From an uncultured Acidobacteriia bacterium (GTDB lineage: Bacteria > Acidobacteriota > Terriglobia > Bryobacterales > Bryobacteraceae), in assembly GCA_903876865.1 (NCBI GenBank), contig CAIRBY010000258.1, forward strand, positions 1 through 46,568: a DNA stretch of 46,568 nucleotides, read 5' to 3'. A program made the position numbers and the translations under genes. Positions 22,787 to 46,568 of the stretch are shown here, piece after piece. Every line of letters begins with the position of its first letter. Positions within the stretch are counted from its first letter, which is position 1. The notes under the pieces are model-generated. The model did no database searches and was not told where the DNA came from. It saw only the letters and a program-made list of their open reading frames with translations.

Positions 22787-24739
22787 TCAACATAACCGCA
22801 CCTGCATCCTCCGGCGCGGCGCGACCAGCATCGCCGGAACCGTCGGTAGTGGAGGCGCGGGGGGATGTGGCGCGGGCGGTAATTCCACTGGCGCCGAGTC
22901 TGCCGCCGCTGTTGGTTCTGGCGAAAATAACTCGCCCTGTAAAAGTGCCTCCAACTGTGCCCAGTGATGTTCCGCAAATCGGTCCATCCCCAGGTCGTAT
23001 GCCGCGGCTCGTGCGTATACCCGGCAATCCAGCGCCTCGTTGCGCGGCCGCTTCTGTTTCCAGTCCCGGTGTACCCGCCCGCTCCGGTCCTGCCAGGTCA
23101 CCAACTGCTCGGAGCAGAGCTGCCGGAAATGTTCCTCGCCGTAGTACTGCCCTTTCGGAAAATGGCAATACCCGTTGGGGATTTCCTCCTCGATCGACTT
23201 TTTCAGGTCCGCGTACAGCTCGCCCTTGAAGAATCCGCTGAGTACGTGCCGGATGCGCAGCCCGTGTTTGATCTTTCGGCCCGCGATGGTCACATCCACC
23301 GCGGAAGGCTGGCTCACCGGCAGCAGGCCCTTGTGCGCGCCCTTGATCGCCACCACACGGTTCGAGGGCTGCCGCCGCACCTGGTCGTACACCACGTGCG
23401 ACTGATCGCCAGAGTCCAGGAAGAATCGCGAGCACGGCATCACCGCGCCGCCCTGCGTGGGCCAAGTCGAGTGCACGAAGGTCCAGAACCGCTCCCACAC
23501 CTCCGGCCGCGACGTATCCCCCTCGAAGACCCGGTAGTCGATGCTCCAACTCTCCCGGCGCCGGCCCCACGCCACCATCTCGGCCTCGATCCGGTCGTGC
23601 TGCACATCTCCGCCGCCCGTCAGAAATAGTCCGCCCCTCGGCACGATCCCCACCGGGTACTCTTCGCACCGCTTCAGCAGCCCTTCCCACTCCACCGTCT
23701 CCCCAGGCTCGACCCAGTTCTCCGCCAGCGTCTCGTTGACGAAGGTCATGTACTCGATCGGATTGTCCTTTTTTGCCAGAAAATCCATTACGATTTCCGG
23801 CAAGGTCTTCCAGGGAGAATAAAGCTTTGAAATCCAATACCCGGCGATCCCGTTGAATGGCGCCTGCGCGATCCACTGCCCGCGATCCACGGCTTCCGTC
23901 CGCTGCACGTCGTCCCACGGCTGGTCGCAATCCTCGCAGTAATACCGCGCCGAGGCTGCCTGCTCTTCGCGCGTCAACAGTGTCTCGTCCCACCGCACCT
24001 GCGTGAAGAACTTCTCCATCATGCTCTGCATCGCGCCACAATGTGGGCAGGGCACGAAAAGTTCCCGCTGGTCCGAATCCTGATAGGCCCGGTCGATTGC
24101 CGAATTCACCTTCGAAGGCGAGCTGGATCGGATCACCTTTTTCCGGCCGCGATACGTATCCGTGCGGCTCAACGCCATCGCGAACGGATTGCCCCTGCCG
24201 CCCGAACTCGCCGGCCACTTGTCCTCCTCCTCGCAGATCAGATACCGGATGGATCGCCGCGCTAGGTTGCCCGGCGCGCTCGCAAACGTGATCGCCAGCA
24301 TCCCGCCCGGAAACCACTTCTCCCGCAGCGTGTTCTTGCTCCGCCGGCTGCCCGAGTCGGATAGTTTCCCCTGTAGCCGCGGCGTGTCCCGCGTCATCGG
24401 CCCGATGCGCTCTTTGCCGAATGCGTCCGCATCCGATTCGCGCTCGTTCACCACCAACACAGGCCCCGGATCGGTATCGATGATCCACGCGATCACCGCC
24501 TGGTTGACCAGCGTCTTCAGAATCTGCGTGGCGCCCTTGATCACCACCTGCCACGTATCCGGCGAGCTGAAGCTGTCCATCGGCCCGCGCTGGAACGGAT
24601 AGCAGGTGAACTTTCCCGGCTTCGCTGCGTACTCCGGCGACAGGTACAGATACCGGTCTGCCCACTCCGAAACAGAGATATGCCGCGGCGGCGCAAACAG
24701 TCGCGATAAGTCCCGTACGATTTGCTCTCCGCGTGTCAT
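22787..24739 (-). CDS. Terminase large subunit (GpA family)
   Basis: GEQIVRDLSRLFAPPRHISVSEWADRYLYLSPEYAAKPGKFTCYPFQRGPMDSFSSPDTWQVVIKGATQILKT; ICEEEDKWPA. Confidence 0.9.
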   Translation of the reverse strand: MTRGEQIVRDLSRLFAPPRHISVSEWADRYLYLSPEYAAKPGKFTCYPFQRGPMDSFSSPDTWQVVIKGATQILKTLVNQAVIAWIIDTDPGPVLVVNERESDADAFGKERIGPMTRDTPRLQGKLSDSGSRRSKNTLREKWFPGGMLAITFASAPGNLARRSIRYLICEEEDKWPASSGGRGNPFAMALSRTDTYRGRKKVIRSSSPSKVNSAIDRAYQDSDQRELFVPCPHCGAMQSMMEKFFTQVRWDETLLTREEQAASARYYCEDCDQPWDDVQRTEAVDRGQWIAQAPFNGIAGYWISKLYSPWKTLPEIVMDFLAKKDNPIEYMTFVNETLAENWVEPGETVEWEGLLKRCEEYPVGIVPRGGLFLTGGGDVQHDRIEAEMVAWGRRRESWSIDYRVFEGDTSRPEVWERFWTFVHSTWPTQGGAVMPCSRFFLDSGDQSHVVYDQVRRQPSNRVVAIKGAHKGLLPVSQPSAVDVTIAGRKIKHGLRIRHVLSGFFKGELYADLKKSIEEEIPNGYCHFPKGQYYGEEHFRQLCSEQLVTWQDRSGRVHRDWKQKRPRNEALDCRVYARAAAYDLGMDRFAEHHWAQLEALLQGELFSPEPTAAADSAPVELPPAPHPPAPPLPTVPAMLVAPRRRMQVRLC

Positions 24740-25212
24740 GCAGCATTCGCACTCTCCGGCTCCCACTGGCTCAGCTCAGTCAGGGCTGCGCGAATCTCCC
24801 CGTCTAAAATGCGCTCGCAGGCCGTCACGTCGTTCGTGACCGCGAGCTTGAATCCCAGTTGGCTCGGCATCAGCAGCAGCTTGGTTTGCACCTGCGTGAT
24901 CATTGCGCCCAGCGCCCGCTGCACGTCCTTGACGGAGACCAGCTCGCCCTTGATCCGGCGCGCCTCCATCTCCGTGATGTCTGCCCTGGCCTGCTCCCGC
25001 CGCCGCTCCGCGTCCGCCTTCGTGTTGAGCATCACCGGCGCGCTCGCCTCCGGCTTCGCGATCTCCCGCCGCCGCTCTTCCCAGGCGTTCGGGGCCTCGG
25101 CGTCGATCTTCCCGTCCACCAGCGGAATCTCGCCCTTGTTCACGGCCTTGTTGATCGCCGTGTGGCTCACGCCCTTCAGCGCCGCGTACTCGTTTCTGGA
25201 GACCAATGCCAT
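24736..25212 (-). CDS. Terminase small subunit (Nu1-like)
   Basis: MALVSRNEYAALKGVSHTAINKAVNKGEIPLVDGKIDAEAPNAW: N-terminal HTH; upstream of TerL. Confidence 0.8.
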   Translation of the reverse strand: MALVSRNEYAALKGVSHTAINKAVNKGEIPLVDGKIDAEAPNAWEERRREIAKPEASAPVMLNTKADAERRREQARADITEMEARRIKGELVSVKDVQRALGAMITQVQTKLLLMPSQLGFKLAVTNDVTACERILDGEIRAALTELSQWEPESANAA

Positions 25213-25216
25213 AGCC

Positions 25217-25275
25217 TGAAACCGAAACCGCTAAACCCTTGAAACCCTTGAAACCCAGTTTTCAAACCTTCAAAG
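25217..25275. repeat. GGTTTC(AAG) direct repeats upstream of the terminase small subunit
   Basis: Minus strand GGGTTTCAAGGGTTTCAAGGGTTTAGCGGTTTCGGTTTCAGG. Confidence 0.6.
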
Positions 25276-25647
25276 CCCGTCGCCCCGCCATCAATTTACC
25301 CGCGCGGGCTACCCCCCCCTGGGAAGGACCCAAGGGGTTGGGGAATCCTAAGTTGTCTGTTTGTCTTGGAAGAGGCTTCGACCGCCGCTCGACTTACAGC
25401 GTCGGAGTCGTGTCGCGCCCAGGTGAAGGAGAGTTATGCACAACCCAGTGTGCTCGATTCGGGCAAGTACACCGGACACCAAGGAAGTTACCACCAACCA
25501 ATTTGGGTTGTCAAGCACATCCCGCTGCCGATGGTGGCTCGCTTGTTCCAGGCTCCAGGATTCGCGCACGTATAGGCGCACGTTATATGTGCGTGTATTC
25601 ACCCCACCACCCAACCATATCTATACTTCCCGAACGGTTCCAGTTTT

Positions 25648-25822
25648 AGACAAGACAGACAAGACAAGTAAGACAATCTTTGTTCTCACTAAGTTGCGCT
25701 GTCTTGTAACTCCGTATGTCTTGTGACGCTGTAAGACAATAAAAAACCGCTCGTCTTGTGACGAACGGTTTTGTCTTACGTGTCTTGTGACTGTCTTGTG
25801 AGTTTGTCTTGTGACGCAAGAC
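25648..25822. repeat. Iteron-like cluster of GTCTTGT / ACAAGAC (about ten or more copies, both orientations)
   Basis: Plus-strand GTCTTGT at 25701, 25718, 25753, 25782, 25793, 25806; ACAAGAC at 25650, 25659; GTAAGAC/GTCTTAC variants at 25668, 25731, 25773. Confidence 0.85.
25739..25772 (-). terminator. Intrinsic terminator downstream of the VapE-like gene
   Basis: Minus strand CCGTTCGTC-ACAA-GACGAGCGG followed by TTTTTTATT; one stem mismatch. Confidence 0.75.
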
Positions 25823-25825
25823 AAG

Positions 25826-27964
25826 TTATTTTCCTGCGATTGCCGCCGCTGCCTCCGGCCACTCGAATCGATATGGCCGAAGCTGCTTGCCGTTCGGTCC
25901 CAAAACCGGCTTACCGTCACTATCGAACTGCCGCACCTGCTTCAGCTCAAATCCCCGCATCCGCATGATCGCCACCACGCGCGTACGGTCAAACCGGGTC
26001 CACGCCTCGGCTTTTTTCTTGATCCCCTTCTCGAGGATTTCTTCGACGCCGACCCCAAACGCCTCCAGCGGATTCCCGCCCTGCAGCCACGCAGCGCGAG
26101 CCCCCTCCATATAATCCCACACAAGCTGGTCCCACGGATCAACTTCGAACCGTTTTTCTTGCTCAGTCTCCGCTGCGGACGTCAACTCCGGCGAGTCCAA
26201 CCACCACGGTTCCCCGGCCTCATATCGCGACCGGGCCTCCGCCCACAGCTGGTCACGATCGCGCGCCAGCCCGCGCACATCCGCCTTTGTACACTTCACC
26301 GGCCAGAATCGTCTGGCCCCGGTCTCATCGCGCAAATATTCCTCTTTGTTAATGCTCCCCGCGAACACACACTGCCGCGGGAAATCCGCCGTGCGTCGCC
26401 CGTAAGGCGGCCTGAAATGGTCGATCCGCCGCGTGATAAACGCCTTCACCCGCGACATCTCGCTGCGCGCGCTGACCACCGCATCCAGCTCGCCCAGCTC
26501 AATGATCCACTTCCCGTGGATCTGCATCGCCGAGTCCTTCGACCCCAGATCCTCAATGTCATCGTTGAACCAATCGTCGCCCGCAAGCGTGCGCAATGCC
26601 GTCGATTTCCCCAGCCCCTGCAACCCCTGGAAGATCAGGCAGTGATCCGCCTGGCAGCCCGGCTCCATCACTCGCGCCACCGCCGATATCATCCACTTCG
26701 CTCCCACCGCTCGCGCGTATCCACCCGCATCGTCTTTCGCGCCGAAGTAGCGAATCATCATCTCGTCCAGGCGCCGCTCGCCGTCCCACTCCTGCCTCCG
26801 CAGATACTCCCGCACGGGATGAAATGGCCGGTCGCGCGCCACAACCTCCACCGCCTGCGTACACACCGCCGGCGATACGTCGATCCGCTGGTGCTGCATC
26901 CAATCCGCCAGCTTTGCATCGTGAAAGTCCGTCCAGTCGCATGGCTCCGCGTCCCAGATCGTCCCGCGCGTCGCCACCGTGCGCACTGAGAATTCATCAA
27001 ACGCCAGTGCGTCCTTGAACTCTTCCGACCACCTGAGCGCGATCATGACGTTTGCCAGTAGCGGCTTTGGCCCGCGATCGCCCTCTAGTAGCTTCGCCCC
27101 CCACCCTGGCGCCACGGCCTCCGCCGCCGTCGGCTTCCGCTTCGCCTTATCGCGGATCACCTTCGCCTTCGCGAATAGCTTGATCACCGGCTCCGGCCCG
27201 CGCGCCGCCAGCAGATCGTCGATCCCGTTAATCTCCGCTTCCAACTCCGCCGGCCAGCCGAACCACGCCACCTCGCCGACGTGCCGCTCCATCAATTCGT
27301 TGGCCAGCAATTTCCGAGCATACGCCACGTCCATGTTCGTCCCGACGTTCTTGTCGAAGACGATCACCACCCGCCGCCCCTCCCAGAGAATCCGCGCCAT
27401 GTCCGCGATCACGCCCTTCACGTTCACGCGGCTGCCATGCTCGTCGTTCGTCTTCCCGACCACCCCCCGCCAATTCCACACGCCCTGCAGGCCCACCGGC
27501 AGAAACGCCGGCGATTCCGCCGACTCGCCCAACCCGTGCCACGCCAGCCGCCATAGTGCAAGGGTCTTGAACTCGCCCTCCACAATCACGATCGGCATGC
27601 GCGAATCGTGCAGGTACCACTCCGCCACGCCTGGCGGAATGTACAGGATATTTCCGCACCCCGGCGGCCCCATGTATTTGCCCCGCTCCCGCAGCTTCCC
27701 ATCGTGCCCCTGCTCGCGATCCGGATGGTCGCGCCGGATGCGCTCTAGCCGCACCGATGCCTCGCCCGGCCAGATGTACGGAATCACAATTCCCGAATAA
27801 TCCCCAGCGCGGCCGCTCTTCCCGACTATCTCCGCCCCGTCGACCGATACCACCCGTCGCAACAGCGCCGCGTCCGCGCACTGTTTCGAGATCCATCGCC
27901 CGTCCAGCGATTGATAATCGGATTCACTCAGCGGCCCTCCCGCCAATCGTGGTTGGATGCTCAC
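25826..27964 (-). CDS. VapE-like helicase / primase replication protein
   Basis: LIFQGLQGLGKSTALRTLAGDDWFNDDIEDLGSKDSAMQIHGKWIIELGELDAV...RRIDHFRPPYGRRTADFPRQCVFAGSINKEEYLRDETGARRFWPV; N-terminal TOPRIM/DUF3854-like VIVEGEFKTLAL. GTG start overlapping the upstream stop. Confidence 0.85.
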   Translation of the reverse strand: MSIQPRLAGGPLSESDYQSLDGRWISKQCADAALLRRVVSVDGAEIVGKSGRAGDYSGIVIPYIWPGEASVRLERIRRDHPDREQGHDGKLRERGKYMGPPGCGNILYIPPGVAEWYLHDSRMPIVIVEGEFKTLALWRLAWHGLGESAESPAFLPVGLQGVWNWRGVVGKTNDEHGSRVNVKGVIADMARILWEGRRVVIVFDKNVGTNMDVAYARKLLANELMERHVGEVAWFGWPAELEAEINGIDDLLAARGPEPVIKLFAKAKVIRDKAKRKPTAAEAVAPGWGAKLLEGDRGPKPLLANVMIALRWSEEFKDALAFDEFSVRTVATRGTIWDAEPCDWTDFHDAKLADWMQHQRIDVSPAVCTQAVEVVARDRPFHPVREYLRRQEWDGERRLDEMMIRYFGAKDDAGGYARAVGAKWMISAVARVMEPGCQADHCLIFQGLQGLGKSTALRTLAGDDWFNDDIEDLGSKDSAMQIHGKWIIELGELDAVVSARSEMSRVKAFITRRIDHFRPPYGRRTADFPRQCVFAGSINKEEYLRDETGARRFWPVKCTKADVRGLARDRDQLWAEARSRYEAGEPWWLDSPELTSAAETEQEKRFEVDPWDQLVWDYMEGARAAWLQGGNPLEAFGVGVEEILEKGIKKKAEAWTRFDRTRVVAIMRMRGFELKQVRQFDSDGKPVLGPNGKQLRPYRFEWPEAAAAIAGK

Positions 27965-28707
27965 CCCGCCTCCCCGATCTGCTGCACGTCCACGTAACCC
28001 CGCGCCATGCCGACGCCTGAAATATGCCCGAAGTAACCTCCCTCGTCCGCCGCCATCACGACGCTCGCCGCGTGGCTCTGCGCCTCCGCCACTGACTCCG
28101 CCTCCACCACCAAATCCACCCGCAACCTGTATGTCACGTGAAATCCTCCCCGCCTGAATCTTCGATACAGCCTCTCCACTCGCGACGCCGACCGCGCCGT
28201 CATACGCGTCTTGCCCAGCTGCAAGCCCGCCCCATGCTGGCCCAACTGCCTCGCCAGCCACACCTTCGTGTACCCATCCGCGACCAACTGATCGATACAC
28301 CGCCAGGCCGGACGTGCATCCACCAACGACCCATCCGCCGCGCCTTCGAACGTCACCCCCAGAATCGCCCGCTCGGTGGACGCCCGGATCTTCACCGCCC
28401 GCCCTGAGCGGACCGCCTGGACCACGCTGCGCCCCAATCCGGCGGCATCAGCCACGGCCTTATAGCCCACGCCCCGCCGGCTCAGTCGGAGCAGGTGTGC
28501 ATGCGCCGCGGCAGGCTCAACCAGGTCGCGCACATCCCCCTGCGATCGCGCGGCCGTCCGCTCCGTGTTGTACCGGGAATTCGCTGCCCGGCACAGCAGA
28601 CATTTGCAGCCCCCGACGTACCGCGCCCGGCTGCCGTGCTCCCGCTGGCTCGATGCCGCCCGCATCGCCGTGACCCTCACACCCAACGCCTCGCGCGCCG
28701 CCATCAC
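27961..28707 (-). CDS. HTH DNA-binding protein with HGSRARYVGGCKCLLCRAANSRY motif
   Basis: 248 aa; C-x-C-x2-C motif plus HTH-like GVGYKAVADAAGLGRSVVQAVRSGR. Confidence 0.6.
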   Translation of the reverse strand: MMAAREALGVRVTAMRAASSQREHGSRARYVGGCKCLLCRAANSRYNTERTAARSQGDVRDLVEPAAAHAHLLRLSRRGVGYKAVADAAGLGRSVVQAVRSGRAVKIRASTERAILGVTFEGAADGSLVDARPAWRCIDQLVADGYTKVWLARQLGQHGAGLQLGKTRMTARSASRVERLYRRFRRGGFHVTYRLRVDLVVEAESVAEAQSHAASVVMAADEGGYFGHISGVGMARGYVDVQQIGEAG

Positions 28708-29898: not shown

Positions 29899-31002
29899 TC
29901 ATCCCGCCCTCCGCACATTCGCCGCCGTCTGATACCTCACCATCGCCTCCCGCTGCGCATCCTCCGTCGGATGCACGTACCGCCCAATCGTCCGCAAGCT
30001 CCCATGCCCGAGAATCGCCGCCACTACCGCCGACGGCACGCCCGCCTCGATCGCCCGCGTCGCGAACGTATGCCGCCAGTCGTACAGCCGGAAGCTCACC
30101 CCCGCCTCCCGGCAGACCCGGTCGTGCGTCGTATTCAACTGCCCCAAATGATGCCCCGGGCGCCGATCGCTCGGGAACAACCACTCCCCGCCCCACGCCG
30201 CCCGCCTCACCAGAATCTCCCGCGCCGGCGCCGTCACGTACAGCACCCGCCGCGCCGCCCGCGACTTCCCGCCCGCGATCCGCAGCGTCCCCGCTGCCGC
30301 ATCCCAATTCGCCGACCGCGCCGACACCAATTCGTCCGGACGCGCCCCCGTCTCCAGCATCAGCCGCGCCAGGTCCGCCAGATTCGGCGGCGCGCCCTTC
30401 ACCTGCTTGCAATGCGCCGCATGCAGCCCCGCCGCAGCCGCGAAGTATGCCGCCTCTTCCGCCGCCGTCACCACGTGCTCCTGGATCGATTCCGCATCGC
30501 TCGGCACCGTTACCGTCCGCACCGGATTCGCCTTCGCCAGCCCCCGCGGAATTGCCCACTTCCGGTAAAAAACCGAAAGCGCGTGCAGATCGTGCCGCAC
30601 CGTCACCGCCTGCACCATGTGCTCCCCGAACCGCCACGCCTTGAACCCCTCGATTTGCGGCCCATCCACACTCGCCACCGCCTGCCCGCCGAAGAAATCC
30701 CGAAGCGCCGCGAAGCTCCCCCGCAGCCGCGCGGCCGTACTCGCCTTCTCGCGATACTCCACGTTCTCGCACCAATCCAGAAATGCCTCCGCCGCCTCCC
30801 CGAAGTTCAGCGACACGCTCACCACCCGCTTCACCACCGCCCGCGGCTTCACCTGGCGCAATTCCTCACGCCGCGCCATTTCCACCACCGCCGCGGCCAT
30901 CGCATTTTCTTCGCAGTCGGCGTACCCCGTGCATCCGGAGTACTCCCGGCCCCGGAAACTGAATCGGTAATGCCACTGCCCCCGCCGTCGTCTGATCGCC
31001 AT
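29899..31002 (-). CDS. int: Tyrosine-family integrase
   Basis: MLETGARPDELVSAR... and YDWRHTFATRAIEAG...LGHGSLRTIGRYVH (R..HxxR..H..Y). Confidence 0.9.
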   Translation of the reverse strand: MAIRRRRGQWHYRFSFRGREYSGCTGYADCEENAMAAAVVEMARREELRQVKPRAVVKRVVSVSLNFGEAAEAFLDWCENVEYREKASTAARLRGSFAALRDFFGGQAVASVDGPQIEGFKAWRFGEHMVQAVTVRHDLHALSVFYRKWAIPRGLAKANPVRTVTVPSDAESIQEHVVTAAEEAAYFAAAAGLHAAHCKQVKGAPPNLADLARLMLETGARPDELVSARSANWDAAAGTLRIAGGKSRAARRVLYVTAPAREILVRRAAWGGEWLFPSDRRPGHHLGQLNTTHDRVCREAGVSFRLYDWRHTFATRAIEAGVPSAVVAAILGHGSLRTIGRYVHPTEDAQREAMVRYQTAANVRRAG

Positions 31003-31192
31003 TGCTCGCACCTCGGCACAATTGTAGCCACGCCTCCACATCGCCAGCGAGATACCGAACCGTCCGATGTCCGAACCGCACCACCGCCGGACCGCGCTGC
31101 TGTGCCCGCCACGTCTCCAGCGTCCTCTCAGCCACCCCCAACAGCGCCGCCGCCTCCGCCGCCGTGTACAGCTTCTGCCCCACCAGACTCAT
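30866..31192 (-). CDS. Excisionase/AlpA-like HTH protein overlapping int
   Basis: MSLVGQKLYTAAEAAALLGVAERTLETWRAQQRGPAVVRFGHRTVRYLAGDVEAWLQLCRG: MerR/Xis-type HTH; ORF runs 137 nt into int in another frame. Confidence 0.65.
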   Translation of the reverse strand: MSLVGQKLYTAAEAAALLGVAERTLETWRAQQRGPAVVRFGHRTVRYLAGDVEAWLQLCRGASNGDQTTAGAVALPIQFPGPGVLRMHGVRRLRRKCDGRGGGGNGAA

Positions 31193-32659: not shown

Positions 32660-34534
32660 TCATGCCGCCACCAGCGGCCCCTGCGCCTGCGCCCACTCCG
32701 CGATCTTCCGCGCCTGCGCCCGATTCTTCTTGCTCCCCTCGATCGCCGCCGTCCACTCCATCAACTCCGCAATCGCCGCCCCCATCGCCTCTTCCCGCGT
32801 CGCCGAGGGCTTCTGTGTCGCCTCCGGCAGCAGGTACACTCCGTCGCTCTCCGTCTGCGCCTCGAACGCGCCACGCCACCCGCCCGGCGAACGCACCAGT
32901 AACAGCGCCGCCTGTCCCGGCGCCGGCATCTCGATCACCTCGCACTGCTCGCGCGCCCAAATCCCGTCTTCATCCGCCAGCGGCAAGGGGTACACGAACG
33001 GACGCGGCAACGGCTCCGCTCCAGCCACCCCCGCCGCCTTCTTCCCGCGAACCTTCGGCGCCTGCACCTCCGCGCTCGCCCGCGCCGCCAGCTCGGCCCA
33101 ATTCACCCCGGCCGCATTCGCCGCCTCCACCAGGCCTCCGGGCACTTCCTCCGCATTGCGGTCCCAGCTCGGCAACTGTAACTCCCGCGCCAGGGCGAAC
33201 TCGATCAGCAGCGTGACCAGCCCCTCCTCCGGCAGGTCTCCGATTGGCAGAATATCCGCATCCCACTCCGGATGCCGCTTGCGCACGATCTCCCGCAGCT
33301 CGCCGCCCATCGCCTTCCAGAACGCCTCCGCCACCAGCTCCAGGTCCGCCGACAATCGTTGACTCGGACCCTTCGCCAGTACCGCATCCAGAATCCGGCC
33401 GCGCCCCAGCTTCGCCCCCTCGATCCGCGCCTTCGCCTCCCGTGCCTCGTCCTTCTCCGCCTGGCTCTTCTCTACCTTCGAATACGCCGAACCGCCACCG
33501 CCGTGCCCGCCGGTGAAATGCTTCTTGCAACTCCCGTTCGCACAGACATCCACGATCTGCCCCACGCCCGCGCCGCTCACCACAATCGCCCGCGACTCCC
33601 CGCCGCACCGCTGCGTCTTGCCGCCGATCTCCTTGTACTGGTGGTCCGCCAGCGTCCCCTTCGGCAGGTTCGGATGGTAGCCGTACCCGCGCTTGATCTT
33701 CACCAGCTCCGGGTCCGCCTTCAACTCCCGCGCCATATGCGCCGCCACCTTGCCCCGGTAGCATTCCGCATCCAGGCAATTGTTCGGGCTCCGCATATCC
33801 GCGCACAAGTCCGGCTGGTTCCCGCTCCGCTTCGGACACTCCACGCACGTCCCCGCCGCCTTCACTAGCTTCGCGTCGTCTTTCGGAAACGCCGCCGCGT
33901 CCAGGTTCAGTACCAGCTCTTCCTTGATCCACCGGTCCAGCGCCCGCAGGCTGAGCTCTCGCCCTTGCTCGCGCCGCTCCTCAATCTCCCGCACTGCCTC
34001 GGCCTGCCCGCTCTCCCCCAGCCGCGCGATCCGCGCCGCCTTCGCCTGCGTCACCAGGCCGCTCTCCATCGCCTCGCGCAACACCGCCGATACCGTCAGC
34101 AGCTGCAGCCGCTGATAGATGTACCGCTTGCTTTTCCCCACCCGCTCCGCGATCCGCGCCACGTCGTACCCGTGCTCGTCGATGAGCCGCTGGAACCCCT
34201 CCGCCTCCTCCAGCCGCGTTACGTCCTCGCGCTGCGCATTCTCCACCAGTTGCACCTCGGCCGCCTCCGCCGCCGTACACTCGCGCACCGTAACCGGCAC
34301 CTCCGCTAGGCCGGCCAGCCGCGCCGCCCGCAGTCGCCGCTCTCCCGCGATCAGGATGTACTCGCCCTCTACATCACCCGGCCGCACCACCAGCGCCTGC
34401 ACGATCCCATTCCCCCGGATCGATTCCGCCAGCTCCGCCAGCTTCCCCTCGTCGAACCGCTTCCGCGGATTCGTCCCGCTCTCCCGCACCGCGCCGATCG
34501 CAACGCTCATTCCTACAATCCCAGCCGTATCCAT
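32660..34534 (-). CDS. ParB/Spo0J-like protein with long C-terminal extension
   Basis: NPRKRFDEGKLAELAESIRGNGIVQALVVRPGDVEGEYILIAGERRLRAARLAGLAEVPVTVRECTAAEAAEVQLVENAQREDVTRLEEAEGFQRLI: ParB N-terminal boxes; ~625 aa. Confidence 0.85.
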   Translation of the reverse strand: MDTAGIVGMSVAIGAVRESGTNPRKRFDEGKLAELAESIRGNGIVQALVVRPGDVEGEYILIAGERRLRAARLAGLAEVPVTVRECTAAEAAEVQLVENAQREDVTRLEEAEGFQRLIDEHGYDVARIAERVGKSKRYIYQRLQLLTVSAVLREAMESGLVTQAKAARIARLGESGQAEAVREIEERREQGRELSLRALDRWIKEELVLNLDAAAFPKDDAKLVKAAGTCVECPKRSGNQPDLCADMRSPNNCLDAECYRGKVAAHMARELKADPELVKIKRGYGYHPNLPKGTLADHQYKEIGGKTQRCGGESRAIVVSGAGVGQIVDVCANGSCKKHFTGGHGGGGSAYSKVEKSQAEKDEAREAKARIEGAKLGRGRILDAVLAKGPSQRLSADLELVAEAFWKAMGGELREIVRKRHPEWDADILPIGDLPEEGLVTLLIEFALARELQLPSWDRNAEEVPGGLVEAANAAGVNWAELAARASAEVQAPKVRGKKAAGVAGAEPLPRPFVYPLPLADEDGIWAREQCEVIEMPAPGQAALLLVRSPGGWRGAFEAQTESDGVYLLPEATQKPSATREEAMGAAIAELMEWTAAIEGSKKNRAQARKIAEWAQAQGPLVAA

Positions 34535-34842
34535 CGCTCGCCTCCCAACTGCACCAGCTTCATAGCCCACATCACCGCCAGCAACACCGCCGCAGCCCGC
34601 CACTTCTCCCGCGACACCCGCAGCCGGCAGTACCGCCGCCACAACCCCCGCTTCCGCTTCCGCTGCTCGCGCTCCGCCACCAGTGCCCGCTCCGCCCCGC
34701 TCACGGCCATCATGTATTGATCCACGCTCACCATCGGCACCGGCTCCGGCTCCGGCATCGGGTCGTCCTCGCGTGCCCCCATCGCCCCCAGCCACCGCCG
34801 GTCCATCGCTGTCAATTTCAACTCCCCGCTGCGCGCCTTCAT
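34513..34842 (-). CDS. Small protein with predicted TM segment
   Basis: 109 aa; AAAVLLAVMWAMKLVQLGG. Confidence 0.5.
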   Translation of the reverse strand: MKARSGELKLTAMDRRWLGAMGAREDDPMPEPEPVPMVSVDQYMMAVSGAERALVAEREQRKRKRGLWRRYCRLRVSREKWRAAAVLLAVMWAMKLVQLGGERWIRLGL

Positions 34843-35228
34843 ATCCCCAACCCCGCAATGTCATCCACCACCAGCCCCGTCACCCGGAACCCCGCCTCCG
34901 GCCCGATCCAGAACACCGCCACATCCGAGTACGGCACCCCACTGGCCGCGCCCTTCACATTCCGCGCCAGCACCTGCTCGTACTCCACCTCCGTCCCATC
35001 CGCCAGCGTCACCGTCAGCGCGATCCGCCAACCCGTCACCCGGCCGCCCACCGCGCCCACGAACACCTGCACCCCGTACACCGTCTCCGGCGTCGCCGTC
35101 TCCGCCACTCCCGGCACATTTGTCGCCGTCAATAGCCACAAGTGCCGCGATTCCGCCCGCAGCCCCGTCACCCCCATCAGCCCCGCGCATACCAGCGCCG
35201 CCACACTACACCGTTCCATCGCTCGCAT
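34839..35228 (-). CDS. Putative secreted protein
   Basis: MRAMERCSVAALVCAGLMGVTGLRAES signal peptide; TAATG overlap. Confidence 0.55.
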   Translation of the reverse strand: MRAMERCSVAALVCAGLMGVTGLRAESRHLWLLTATNVPGVAETATPETVYGVQVFVGAVGGRVTGWRIALTVTLADGTEVEYEQVLARNVKGAASGVPYSDVAVFWIGPEAGFRVTGLVVDDIAGLGI

Positions 35229-43190: not shown

Positions 43191-45796
43191 GGCAGCGCAA
43201 TCCCGCGCAGCGCCATAGAGCTTTTCATCACCGTGTAGAGATGCTTCACTTCGGAGGCGTTCAGCACTCGATTCCAGATGCCAACAGATGCAATCAGCAT
43301 TTGCGGCTCCTGATATGCACCGCCATCGCTGCCAATCCACATTTGTGCGGACGTCATCACGGGCGTTGTGCCGCCGCCACCGCCATATGTGAAGTTGTAG
43401 TACGTGCTGCTTTCCACCCCGTTGATGTAGATTTTCACGCTGCCCGCGATGACGCCAGTGCCGCGAGTCATGACCACATGCGCCCACGTCGCACCAGTGA
43501 TCAAGCTACCAGCCGAGCACACGCCGCGATTCACGTTCAAAGCTGTATTCCAGATCGCGCAGACCGACCCCGGATTCGTCGTGCTCGCGTTACTGTCGGT
43601 CCAGAACCATAGACCGGATGATCCGCCAGTATTCCCCGCACCAAACCATCGGTATTGCGTACTTGCGCTCGGCCACTGCACCACGCCAGAAAAACTCCAC
43701 GGCAGATCACTCGCGAATAGAGCGGGCTTGATCACTGCCCCATTCGGAGTGAGGTCGTATAGCGTCAGGCCCTGGCTTCCAGTCGGCAGCGAAATGCCAG
43801 TGGATGCCCACATCGTGGAATTTTGCTTAAACCCGCACCCTGTGTATGATCCCGCGTAGCACGGCCAGAGTACCGCCGTCGGTTGCGCGTTAAATATACA
43901 TGTCGCAGCCGTAGTGCATCCGCTGGCACCGGAGTTGATGACCCTCGCTTGGTCGATGGTGCCGACGAACGGCCACGACGTATTTCCCCGATGCTCGTAG
44001 AAATCGAAATAATATTCGAGCCCTTTTCGCGGAATCGCATTAGACACACTGCCCGTTGAGAACCTTATCCCGCTGTTACCTAGGTTGGCCGACCCTTGCG
44101 CTGGTGCGGGAACTACCAGTTCGACTGGCTGATAGAATGCGACAGCCTTGGTCTCGGCGTGATATGCCTGGAACAAGGGAGAACCAATGCCGCCAGTACA
44201 CGCGCTGGTGTCGTGTGTCCCACCGTTCAGTTGAATCTGATATTGGTTCCCGATGATGGCTGTTCCAGCCGCTGCGGTTCCATTGATGGCAGCCCAACAC
44301 CCAGTAGCGCCTGAAATGTTCAATGCCGTCGTACCCGTCCAGTACCCTGGCATCGTAGCGGACAGGGTGAGGATCGGATTGGTCGCGGCTGTGATCGAGG
44401 CGATGGTGTAGTTGTTGCTGCTGTACCAGTAATAGGCATCGAACAAGTCCAAGCATTTGAAATGCATGGAATCATTGCCCTGCGCGGCGCACGTCTCGCG
44501 CATGATGTTGACGAAATCGTGGCCCTGTCCTGCGGCAATGGAATGCAGTGGGGTCCACGGACCCCAAGGAGCAGGAGAAGTTTCTACCCACATCTGCCCA
44601 CCGTAACTGTTCGTGGCGTAAGCATTGTCCCAGAGTTGCGAGGTCATGACGAAGGTGCACTTGCTCTGTCCGTCGCAAAGCCAAACGGGCGCACGCCACG
44701 TCACACCGAAATTCGCAAACGGGATCGACCCATTTCCAGTAGAAGGTTGTTTTACCCAAAGTGGAGTTGCACTGGCCTGAGTCTGCGTCCAGTTGGCTCC
44801 GGCTCCGCAGTTCCCGCTGATCGACAGCGCAGACGCGGGTGTGTAGTTGGAGTTGACGTAATACCAGTATTGAGCAGGGTCCAGAACTGATCCAATCGAG
44901 TTGCTGACGCAAACGAGATATGCGGTGGCTCGATTTCCGTTTGAAGTAATCGCGTACAGATACGGACCGAACGGCAGCGTGCAGTCGTTCCCTTGGCAGA
45001 AATCAAACACGTGAAGCTGCTGCATGATCCCTGTGCTGCCATTGTATGGAGATGGCTCTTTCCACATCATCGACGAGTGCGTCCCGTCGAGGTACGCCGT
45101 GTTGGTGCATGTCGCCGTTCCACTCGCTGCATCGCACTTCGGCGCGTCGCCCGTCGCGCTCCAATTCGTCGCGTCGCATCCAGCCCCACCCGAGCGGTTG
45201 AAGTAGGTGTAGGGATTGCACCAGTGTGCGCCACCGTCCGGTGAGCACACAAGAGTATTGTCGTGACCTTCAAAGAGACCACCGTAATCGTTCTGGCGAT
45301 TTGGGGATATACACACGTAACCACCAGCCACCGCAAACGGCTCTGACGATTTCCATGTGCCGTGGTTCACATTGGCGACATCAGCAGACGTATACTTGCC
45401 AAACCACCCCGCAGGTACGTCCGTCGTTACTGGACCGCCATAGCTAGACATCGCGTTCACCAGCGACATCGACACGCTATAGCCAGACAAATCCAGCGTA
45501 CCAATGGTGTACGCTACGATGTTGCCTTGTGTCCCCTTCACGTTGGTGTCGTTCGTGGTGCACAACTGCGCAGTGATCGTGTGGTTCCCCGTTCCATCGC
45601 CCCTGTTGAGCGTCATAGTCGCCGGAGTGCCGCCGCTTGCGAACGTGGTCGGGAGTTGAACGCAGTACGGAGTGTCTCCCTGAACGTCGAATGTGGAGGC
45701 CCAATAGTCCAGTGCTGGGCCGTTCACTGGAAGCGGAGGAAGCACCCCTTGAGCGAACGCCGGAAGGGAGGCTAAGAGCAGAATCAAGATGCGCAT
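43187..45796 (-). CDS. Large secreted LamG-containing protein
   Basis: Signal peptide [18 protein letters not shown]-terminal GSVKIYINGVESSTYY...MWIGSDGGAYQEPQMLIASVGIWNRVLNASEVKHLY (LamG/concanavalin-like). Confidence 0.65.
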   Translation of the reverse strand: MRILILLLASLPAFAQGVLPPLPVNGPALDYWASTFDVQGDTPYCVQLPTTFASGGTPATMTLNRGDGTGNHTITAQLCTTNDTNVKGTQGNIVAYTIGTLDLSGYSVSMSLVNAMSSYGGPVTTDVPAGWFGKYTSADVANVNHGTWKSSEPFAVAGGYVCISPNRQNDYGGLFEGHDNTLVCSPDGGAHWCNPYTYFNRSGGAGCDATNWSATGDAPKCDAASGTATCTNTAYLDGTHSSMMWKEPSPYNGSTGIMQQLHVFDFCQGNDCTLPFGPYLYAITSNGNRATAYLVCVSNSIGSVLDPAQYWYYVNSNYTPASALSISGNCGAGANWTQTQASATPLWVKQPSTGNGSIPFANFGVTWRAPVWLCDGQSKCTFVMTSQLWDNAYATNSYGGQMWVETSPAPWGPWTPLHSIAAGQGHDFVNIMRETCAAQGNDSMHFKCLDLFDAYYWYSSNNYTIASITAATNPILTLSATMPGYWTGTTALNISGATGCWAAINGTAAAGTAIIGNQYQIQLNGGTHDTSACTGGIGSPLFQAYHAETKAVAFYQPVELVVPAPAQGSANLGNSGIRFSTGSVSNAIPRKGLEYYFDFYEHRGNTSWPFVGTIDQARVINSGASGCTTAATCIFNAQPTAVLWPCYAGSYTGCGFKQNSTMWASTGISLPTGSQGLTLYDLTPNGAVIKPALFASDLPWSFSGVVQWPSASTQYRWFGAGNTGGSSGLWFWTDSNASTTNPGSVCAIWNTALNVNRGVCSAGSLITGATWAHVVMTRGTGVIAGSVKIYINGVESSTYYNFTYGGGGGTTPVMTSAQMWIGSDGGAYQEPQMLIASVGIWNRVLNASEVKHLYTVMKSSMALRGIALP

Positions 45797-46568
45797 TAGT
45801 GCACCACCTTCGATCCGCGAAGTTCAAAATAGAGTGCGCCTGCCGTGAGATAGGTGGAGCTTCCGTTACCCAGGTTGCCGCCGGATTGAGCGCACAGCTG
45901 CGCCGCAATGTTATAGGTACTCCCCGTATTTAAGACAGGCGGATCGGGCGCGGACTCATACCAGTGGTTCTGTCCACCAGCGACGCCCAACAGAAACAGC
46001 GGCACCAAGTTAGCATAGGTGCTGCTGGTTCCCACGCTGCCATACAAGTTGGTGATAGTGCCGTAAGTGAACTGCGTCGTTTCCTGCATCAGCACTGATT
46101 CAAACCGCCACGCCGCATCCACGCCAGAGAGCAGCGTCACTTGAGCACAGTTCGACGCAACGATGAATGCCGCGTTGCTGTAGCTCAGCGTGGTGGTGTA
46201 CGTTTCGATAGCGTTCTGGAAGCTGGTGGATGTGCCACCCGCACCAGTCAACACAAACGCCTGTTGTGTGGGAAGCGCACTAGCGCCAGCACCCATCACC
46301 ATCGCCCCATTCGTCCACGTTGCCGCCGAAGCGACGCCGCTCGACACCACCACAGGTCCAGTACCGCTCGGCGCGGGTCCAGTTGGTCCAGTTGCTCCGG
46401 TCGGCCCCGCAACTCCAGTCGCTCCAGTCGGACCCGTTGCTCCGGTCGGCCCCGTAGGTCCCGTTGGCCCCTGCGGACCGCTCGCCCCAGTCGGACCCGT
46501 TGCTCCAGTCGGCCCCGTAGGTCCCGTTGGCCCCTGCGGACCGCTCGCCCCAGTCGGACCACTAGGAC
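45796..46568 (-). CDS. Collagen-like secreted/tail-fibre-type protein, C-terminal part (continues from 668..1)
   Basis: Gly-X-Y repeats then [58 protein letters not shown] overlap with the LamG gene. Confidence 0.8.
46439..46568. repeat. Same 63-bp collagen repeat array, two copies at the contig end
   Basis: 46439-46560 identical to 1-122; 46445-46568 identical to 70-193. Confidence 0.95.

Follow-up and report, generated by a model that had tools for sequence, protein, structure and literature searches.

Iteron arrays 3' of VapE-type helicase genes: a probable replication origin in an acidobacterial lambda-type prophage and a candidate code for its specificity

Introduction

Replication origins placed beside the gene of their own initiator have been described in phage satellites, and putative ones in SCC elements. 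In the PICIs, the initiator gene is followed directly by an AT-rich region with a set of iterons on either side, and a segment carrying such an origin sustained plasmid replication in E. coli (PMC6092414). In the SCC elements, Cch2 binds short direct repeats 3' of its own gene via its C-terminal domain, its unwinding activity requires the repeat, and recognition of iterons via a C-terminal domain is likewise reported for SaPI Rep (PMC7581432). The origin type itself is already known. Here, we describe a repeat cluster found between a helicase gene and the terminase genes of an acidobacterial element, within a DNA stretch of 46,568 bp (the window), and its counterparts next to related helicase genes.

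Results

A repeat cluster between helicase and terminase genes

The genes surrounding the cluster are mostly on the minus strand, along which the order is VapE-type helicase, array, Nu1-type small terminase, GpA large terminase, portal, protease and major head protein, with integrase and ParB-family genes upstream of VapE. The neighbours named in the preliminary description were confirmed by profile matches, namely a VapE-like helicase (PF05272, 4.5e-81, 271.9 bits for a gathering cut-off of 25), a Nu1-type small terminase (phrog_57, 7e-26) and a GpA large terminase. Since genes for portal, protease, major head protein, tail tape measure and terminase are all present on the contig, the element is not a satellite of the PICI kind; it is a lambda-type (Nu1/GpA) prophage or phage. 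No exact overlap of 20-399 bases, the sign of a circular genome, was found between the contig ends. At its far end, the contig has a tail-side gene with collagen-like Gly-Pro-Thr repeats (window 45796-46566), and repeat DNA resembling them opens the contig (window 1-60); because similar repeat DNA is present at both ends, the assembly probably broke in this repeat.

All 8 exact copies of GTCTTGT in the window fall at 25650-25812 (6 on the plus strand, 2 on the minus), compared with 3.0 expected on average from shuffles of the entire window, and half of the GTCTTR sites (GTCTTA/GTCTTG; 12 of 24) lie within 25650-25824. Within the 250-bp region, the top 7-mer reaches 8 copies, a count that never exceeded 4 when the region was dinucleotide-shuffled 2000 times. 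The GTCTTGT cluster first noted between the VapE-like and terminase genes is therefore real, as is the AT-richness of the gap (50-65% AT, against 36% for the contig), but the "ten or more copies" were an overcount, and the start-to-start spacings, given as 9-20 bp, are in fact 9, 42, 17, 35, 29, 11 and 13. Read along the VapE gene, the iteron unit is GTCACAAGACA, which occurs three times exactly and three times with a single mismatch. A host-wide dispersed repeat was considered and rejected: the pattern of three spaced copies has no second occurrence anywhere in the 7.27 Mb (1052 contigs) of the host assembly, and a stricter version of this pattern is absent from all 150 related genomes. A search for DNA-level relatives of the window array found none.

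The array starts a few bp from the VapE stop and comprises two sets of short iterons, seven one way and three the other (Table 1). It is less regular than the arrays of relatives: its two sets are separated by only ~25-40 bp of moderately AT-rich DNA, and the alternating purine-pyrimidine stretch lies beyond the second array, whereas in relatives it lies between the two.

Table 1. Features of the array and its neighbourhood (window coordinates)
Feature	Position	Strand	Remarks
Proximal iteron array (nearest VapE stop)	25700..25815	-	Seven sites, VapE direction, consensus GTCACAAGACA
Proximal array sites	25805-25815, 25792-25802, 25781-25791, 25752-25762, 25717-25727, 25700-25710	-	Plus variant GTAAGACA ending at 25773
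Distal iteron array, opposed direction	25647..25674	+	AAGACA at 25651, 25660, 25669 (ACAAGACA, ACAAGACA, GTAAGACA)
Opposite-direction iteron variant within proximal array	25731..25737	+	GTAAGAC
Opposite-direction iteron variant adjoining VapE stop	25813..25823	+	GACGCAAGACA
Inverted repeat, 8-bp stem	25804-25824		TTGTCTTG-TGACG-CAAGACAA; variant GACGCAAGACA paired with neighbouring site
Alternating purine-pyrimidine/TATA stretch, candidate melting region	25565..25605	.	Alternation 0.74 in 25572-25611; putative function
Intrinsic-terminator-like hairpin for VapE	25743..25772	-	AAAACCGTTCGTC-ACAA-GACGAGCGGTTTT then TTATT; 13 pairs; DNA fold z -6.6
Larger inverted repeat enclosing the hairpin	25731-25779		GTAAGACAA/TTGTCTTAC
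C-terminal winged-helix domain of VapE, proposed iteron reader	25862..26047	-	Structure model
Codon of wing residue X (Gln384 of modelled segment)	25937..25939	-	End of first wing strand
VapE-type helicase gene, proposed initiator	25826..28300	-	DUF3854 in N-terminal half, then VapE domain
Nu1-type small terminase gene	24736..25212	-	Neighbour outside origin; phrog_57, 7e-26
GpA-type large terminase gene	22787..24766	-	Neighbour

The 13-pair hairpin with its T-rich tail, embedded in the array with an iteron copy in its loop region, suggests that part of the array's palindromic structure has another role. It could be argued from this hairpin that the repeats are mainly a transcription terminator or regulatory repeats closing the VapE operon. 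One hairpin would suffice for that purpose, however, and the array has at least 12 copies in two sets, is element-specific and covaries with the helicase wing (see below), so that we consider such a reading highly improbable as the main function. Terminator and origin functions can coexist at the array.

Repeat clusters accompany VapE-type helicases

Loci were gathered from bacteria and viral contigs as relatives of either the terminase or VapE; among the viral contigs, no small-terminase relative was confirmed by the search. In 54% of 169 loci, the 400 bp that follow the VapE stop contain a 7-mer in at least five copies, compared with 1.5% of 1864 control windows, and several of the control matches are the same iteron type in a displaced position. 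When each distinct C-terminus is counted once and the downstream DNA is long enough to be searched, 125 of 183 VapE loci have a downstream iteron cluster, either proximal (74, no more than 450 bp past the stop codon) or displaced by up to 4 kb (51), and the remaining 58 are below both cluster thresholds, some of them with visible arrays of fewer copies (e.g. L140, L014). An upstream cluster was found in 1 of the 198 VapE loci for which sufficient upstream sequence was available, the stretch searched on that side being shorter (2.5 kb). The loci with such clusters 3' of the VapE-type helicase gene range over Acidobacteriota and Proteobacteria, and their repeats are element-specific (for instance TGTTCCCAGT, GTGTTCCAGT, GTGTACCAGT, TGTCACCA, GTCCCAAC, GGTCCGGGT and GGTGCACGT). 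In most relatives the layout is a regular +++/−−−, with near copies one way, ~90-120 bp of often alternating purine-pyrimidine, AT-rich DNA, then far copies in the opposite direction, at recurring spacings.

Several variations on this organisation were observed. In L196, L199, L201, L213, L222, L225 and other loci of alphaproteobacterial type, the array follows VapE at a distance of 1.8-3.9 kb, as though other genes had come to lie between the initiator and its origin. L197, L202, L203 and L208 have another repeat array, GGTTTCCA, beside the VapE-type iterons or replacing them. Short-repeat clusters also occur at or near the 3' ends of helicase or primase genes of other families (L057, L099, L103, L047, L077), namely D5_N, DUF3854 with AAA_25, DUF3854 with D5_N and some without a match. 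An isolated phage, Marinobacter phage PS3, has a two-armed array of GGTCACCCC right after its annotated DNA primase gene (L443 4284-4542, MF959999.1).

The preliminary description had left the choice between a replication origin and a cos/pac recognition region. In lambda, the cosB R-sites are short repeats that sit upstream of Nu1, and a comparable set of sites for the Nu1-type small terminase might be seen here, as the array lies ~440 bp upstream of the Nu1-type gene and the array of the closest VapE relative (L088/L445, 52-53% identity, iteron TGAGTCA) also adjoins a small terminase gene (phrog_57), in the same order VapE - iterons - small terminase. Most relatives, however, have the array after VapE with no terminase nearby; for instance, in L059, which belongs to the same bacterial family, ~6 kb separate the array and the terminase. 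Terminase loci devoid of VapE have no comparable non-coding cluster by the small terminase gene (L074 being left out) unless another helicase gene precedes, as does a D5-type gene in L057; the other repeats there are assumed to be coding repeats of lysine codons. The repeats thus do not accompany the Nu1-type gene across relatives, and iteron identity tracks a residue of VapE. Because the clusters follow VapE, the terminase is distant in L059 and VapE-less terminase loci are without them, the cluster belongs to the helicase and not to the terminase, which makes a cos/pac function very unlikely. Of the two proposals, the origin is the one that is strongly supported. The GC-skew analysis put forward as a check gave no sign change at the site and says nothing either way, because nearly all genes are on one strand. 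Short repeats of the GGGTTTCAA/GGTTTC type lie shortly before the start of the small terminase gene, on the strand of that gene (window 25222-25275), and are a better place to seek cosB-like terminase sites than the iteron cluster.

A tyrosine integrase gene (29899-31041) and a ParB-family gene (32660-34864) share the contig with the array, and the element may exist in a plasmid-like state as well. As centromeres can consist of repeat arrays, a parS-like partition site for this ParB-family protein was also weighed; yet the ParB gene is ~7 kb away, and the array adjoins VapE both here and in relatives from many hosts, which leaves partition as the least probable of the readings considered.

Structure of the VapE-type helicase

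A 420-aa segment of VapE (25829-27088) was modelled with a mean pLDDT of 84.6 and a pTM of 0.70. The model aligns with PriRep1 bound to dsDNA (PDB 7PDS, deposited as 'Similar to D. nodosus vapE') with a TM-score of 0.78 by query length and ~26% identity over the structural alignment, and the profile match between the two has an E-value of 1.7e-77. The VapE-type helicase core is common to both proteins, whereas the sequence match does not extend over the C-terminal DNA-binding region. In the model the C-terminus folds as a small winged helix, with helices at 348-355 and 365-377 and wing strands at 381-384 and 406-409.

A wing residue covaries with one iteron base

We designated as X the residue that follows R(Y/F) where the wing of the C-terminal winged helix begins. 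In an alignment of 91 loci with proximal arrays, X pairs with one base of the iteron as follows: Q and H with A, R and K with C, N with T, and Y with G. The association is complete in the 66 non-redundant members, with base classes that we assigned ourselves. When pairs of proteins were matched by core identity, which partly controls for ancestry, the contrast was 0.992 for X and 0.324 for the next best of 376 columns; leaving out families of ambiguous register gave 0.986 and 0.328, respectively. In the unmatched pairwise contrast of all columns against iteron family, X comes no higher than 10th among 376, since the pairs whose iterons differ are also the more distant ones; it is with identity matching and base class that X takes the first rank. 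All 58 pairs with 75-90% core identity and a different base also differ at X, and of the 12 changes of base class on a tree of the helicase core, 9 fall on branches where X changes too. Close pairs that switch X and base together are L114/L115, L106/L108 and L145/L214 (all 86-89% identical). L106 and L108 belong to one genome (G044) and are 89% identical over 136 residues; they have Q and R at X and the iterons TGTCACC and TGTTCCC, respectively.

Base class and register had been chosen after the first set of loci, and the rule was therefore written down before new loci were examined, although the displaced clusters of L111-L270, and X for a few of these loci, were already known by then. The new set comprised 46 non-redundant loci: 38 classified, 7 with a predicting residue that were left unclassified, and 1 with a residue lacking a prediction. 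The rule held in 38/38 classified loci (Q-A 14/14, R-C 22/22, K-C 2/2). This set tests the Q, R and K arms, and the predictions for N, H and Y rest on the derivation set. The classes being broad and class C the commonest iteron type, the R/K arm is a weak test and the Q arm carries most weight. Two distant proteins seem to be exceptions, L436 (R with TGACCAACC) and that of Marinobacter phage PS3 (R with its GGTCACCCC repeat). In the window, which is part of the derivation set and has a wing longer than most, X is Gln384 and the unit contains GTCAC, as the rule expects.

Discussion

Based on the location and layout of the repeats, the homology of the helicase and the covariation of its wing with the iteron, we propose, with a probability of roughly 0.86, that an acidobacterial prophage of the lambda type (Nu1/GpA) has its replication origin in this cluster, with iterons bound by the adjacent VapE-type product. 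Such a protein would bind the iterons with its C-terminal winged helix, its hexamers would load onto the two opposed arrays and melt nearby DNA, and VapE would then act as the replicative helicase. Each element's iteron would be matched by wing residues of its own helicase, and co-resident elements would therefore not need to fire each other's origins.

The closest counterpart is the PICI/SaPI rep-ori (PMC6092414), which shares the location of the origin 3' of an initiator helicase gene, the two iteron sets and the element-specific iteron sequence. The site immediately 3' of the gene for a putatively self-loading initiator helicase, seen in the window, is general among VapE relatives. The satellite origin flanks its melting region with the iteron sets; in the window, moderately AT-rich DNA lies between the sets, and the alternating stretch is outside them. 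The arrays of the window are less regular, and the carriers differ, being satellites in one case and, in the other, a complete prophage of the lambda type that has portal, capsid and tail genes and a different iteron. Cch2 is of the D5/Primase_Cterm family, not VapE, and has only three 5-nt iterons (AAGTG). The lambda cos site shares the short repeats upstream of a Nu1-type gene, but repeats of the window type track the helicase in relatives, and neither a cosN nor a cosQ was found. The feature is very probably an origin of a known type in a new setting, to which a candidate specificity rule is added. In the papers that could be searched, there was no mention of the pairing between X and the iteron base, nor of the spread of the VapE-linked origin type in complete prophages.

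From the covariation in sequence, we consider it fairly likely that the VapE-family phage initiators follow a recognition code in which X sets one base of the iteron, Gln and His specifying A, Arg and Lys C, Asn T, and perhaps Tyr G. Swapping wing and iteron together would change origin specificity, which may let related prophages share a cell without cross-firing.

Most origins of environmental phages are unmapped, and recognising two-armed, helicase-linked origins from sequence alone would place many of them, for instance in prophages of Acidobacteriota and Proteobacteria. An origin organisation described as unique to phage satellites may also be shared with complete phages. The pairing of X with an iteron base would allow the iteron to be predicted from the protein sequence; it makes origin specificity directly testable and predicts which co-resident elements can replicate each other.
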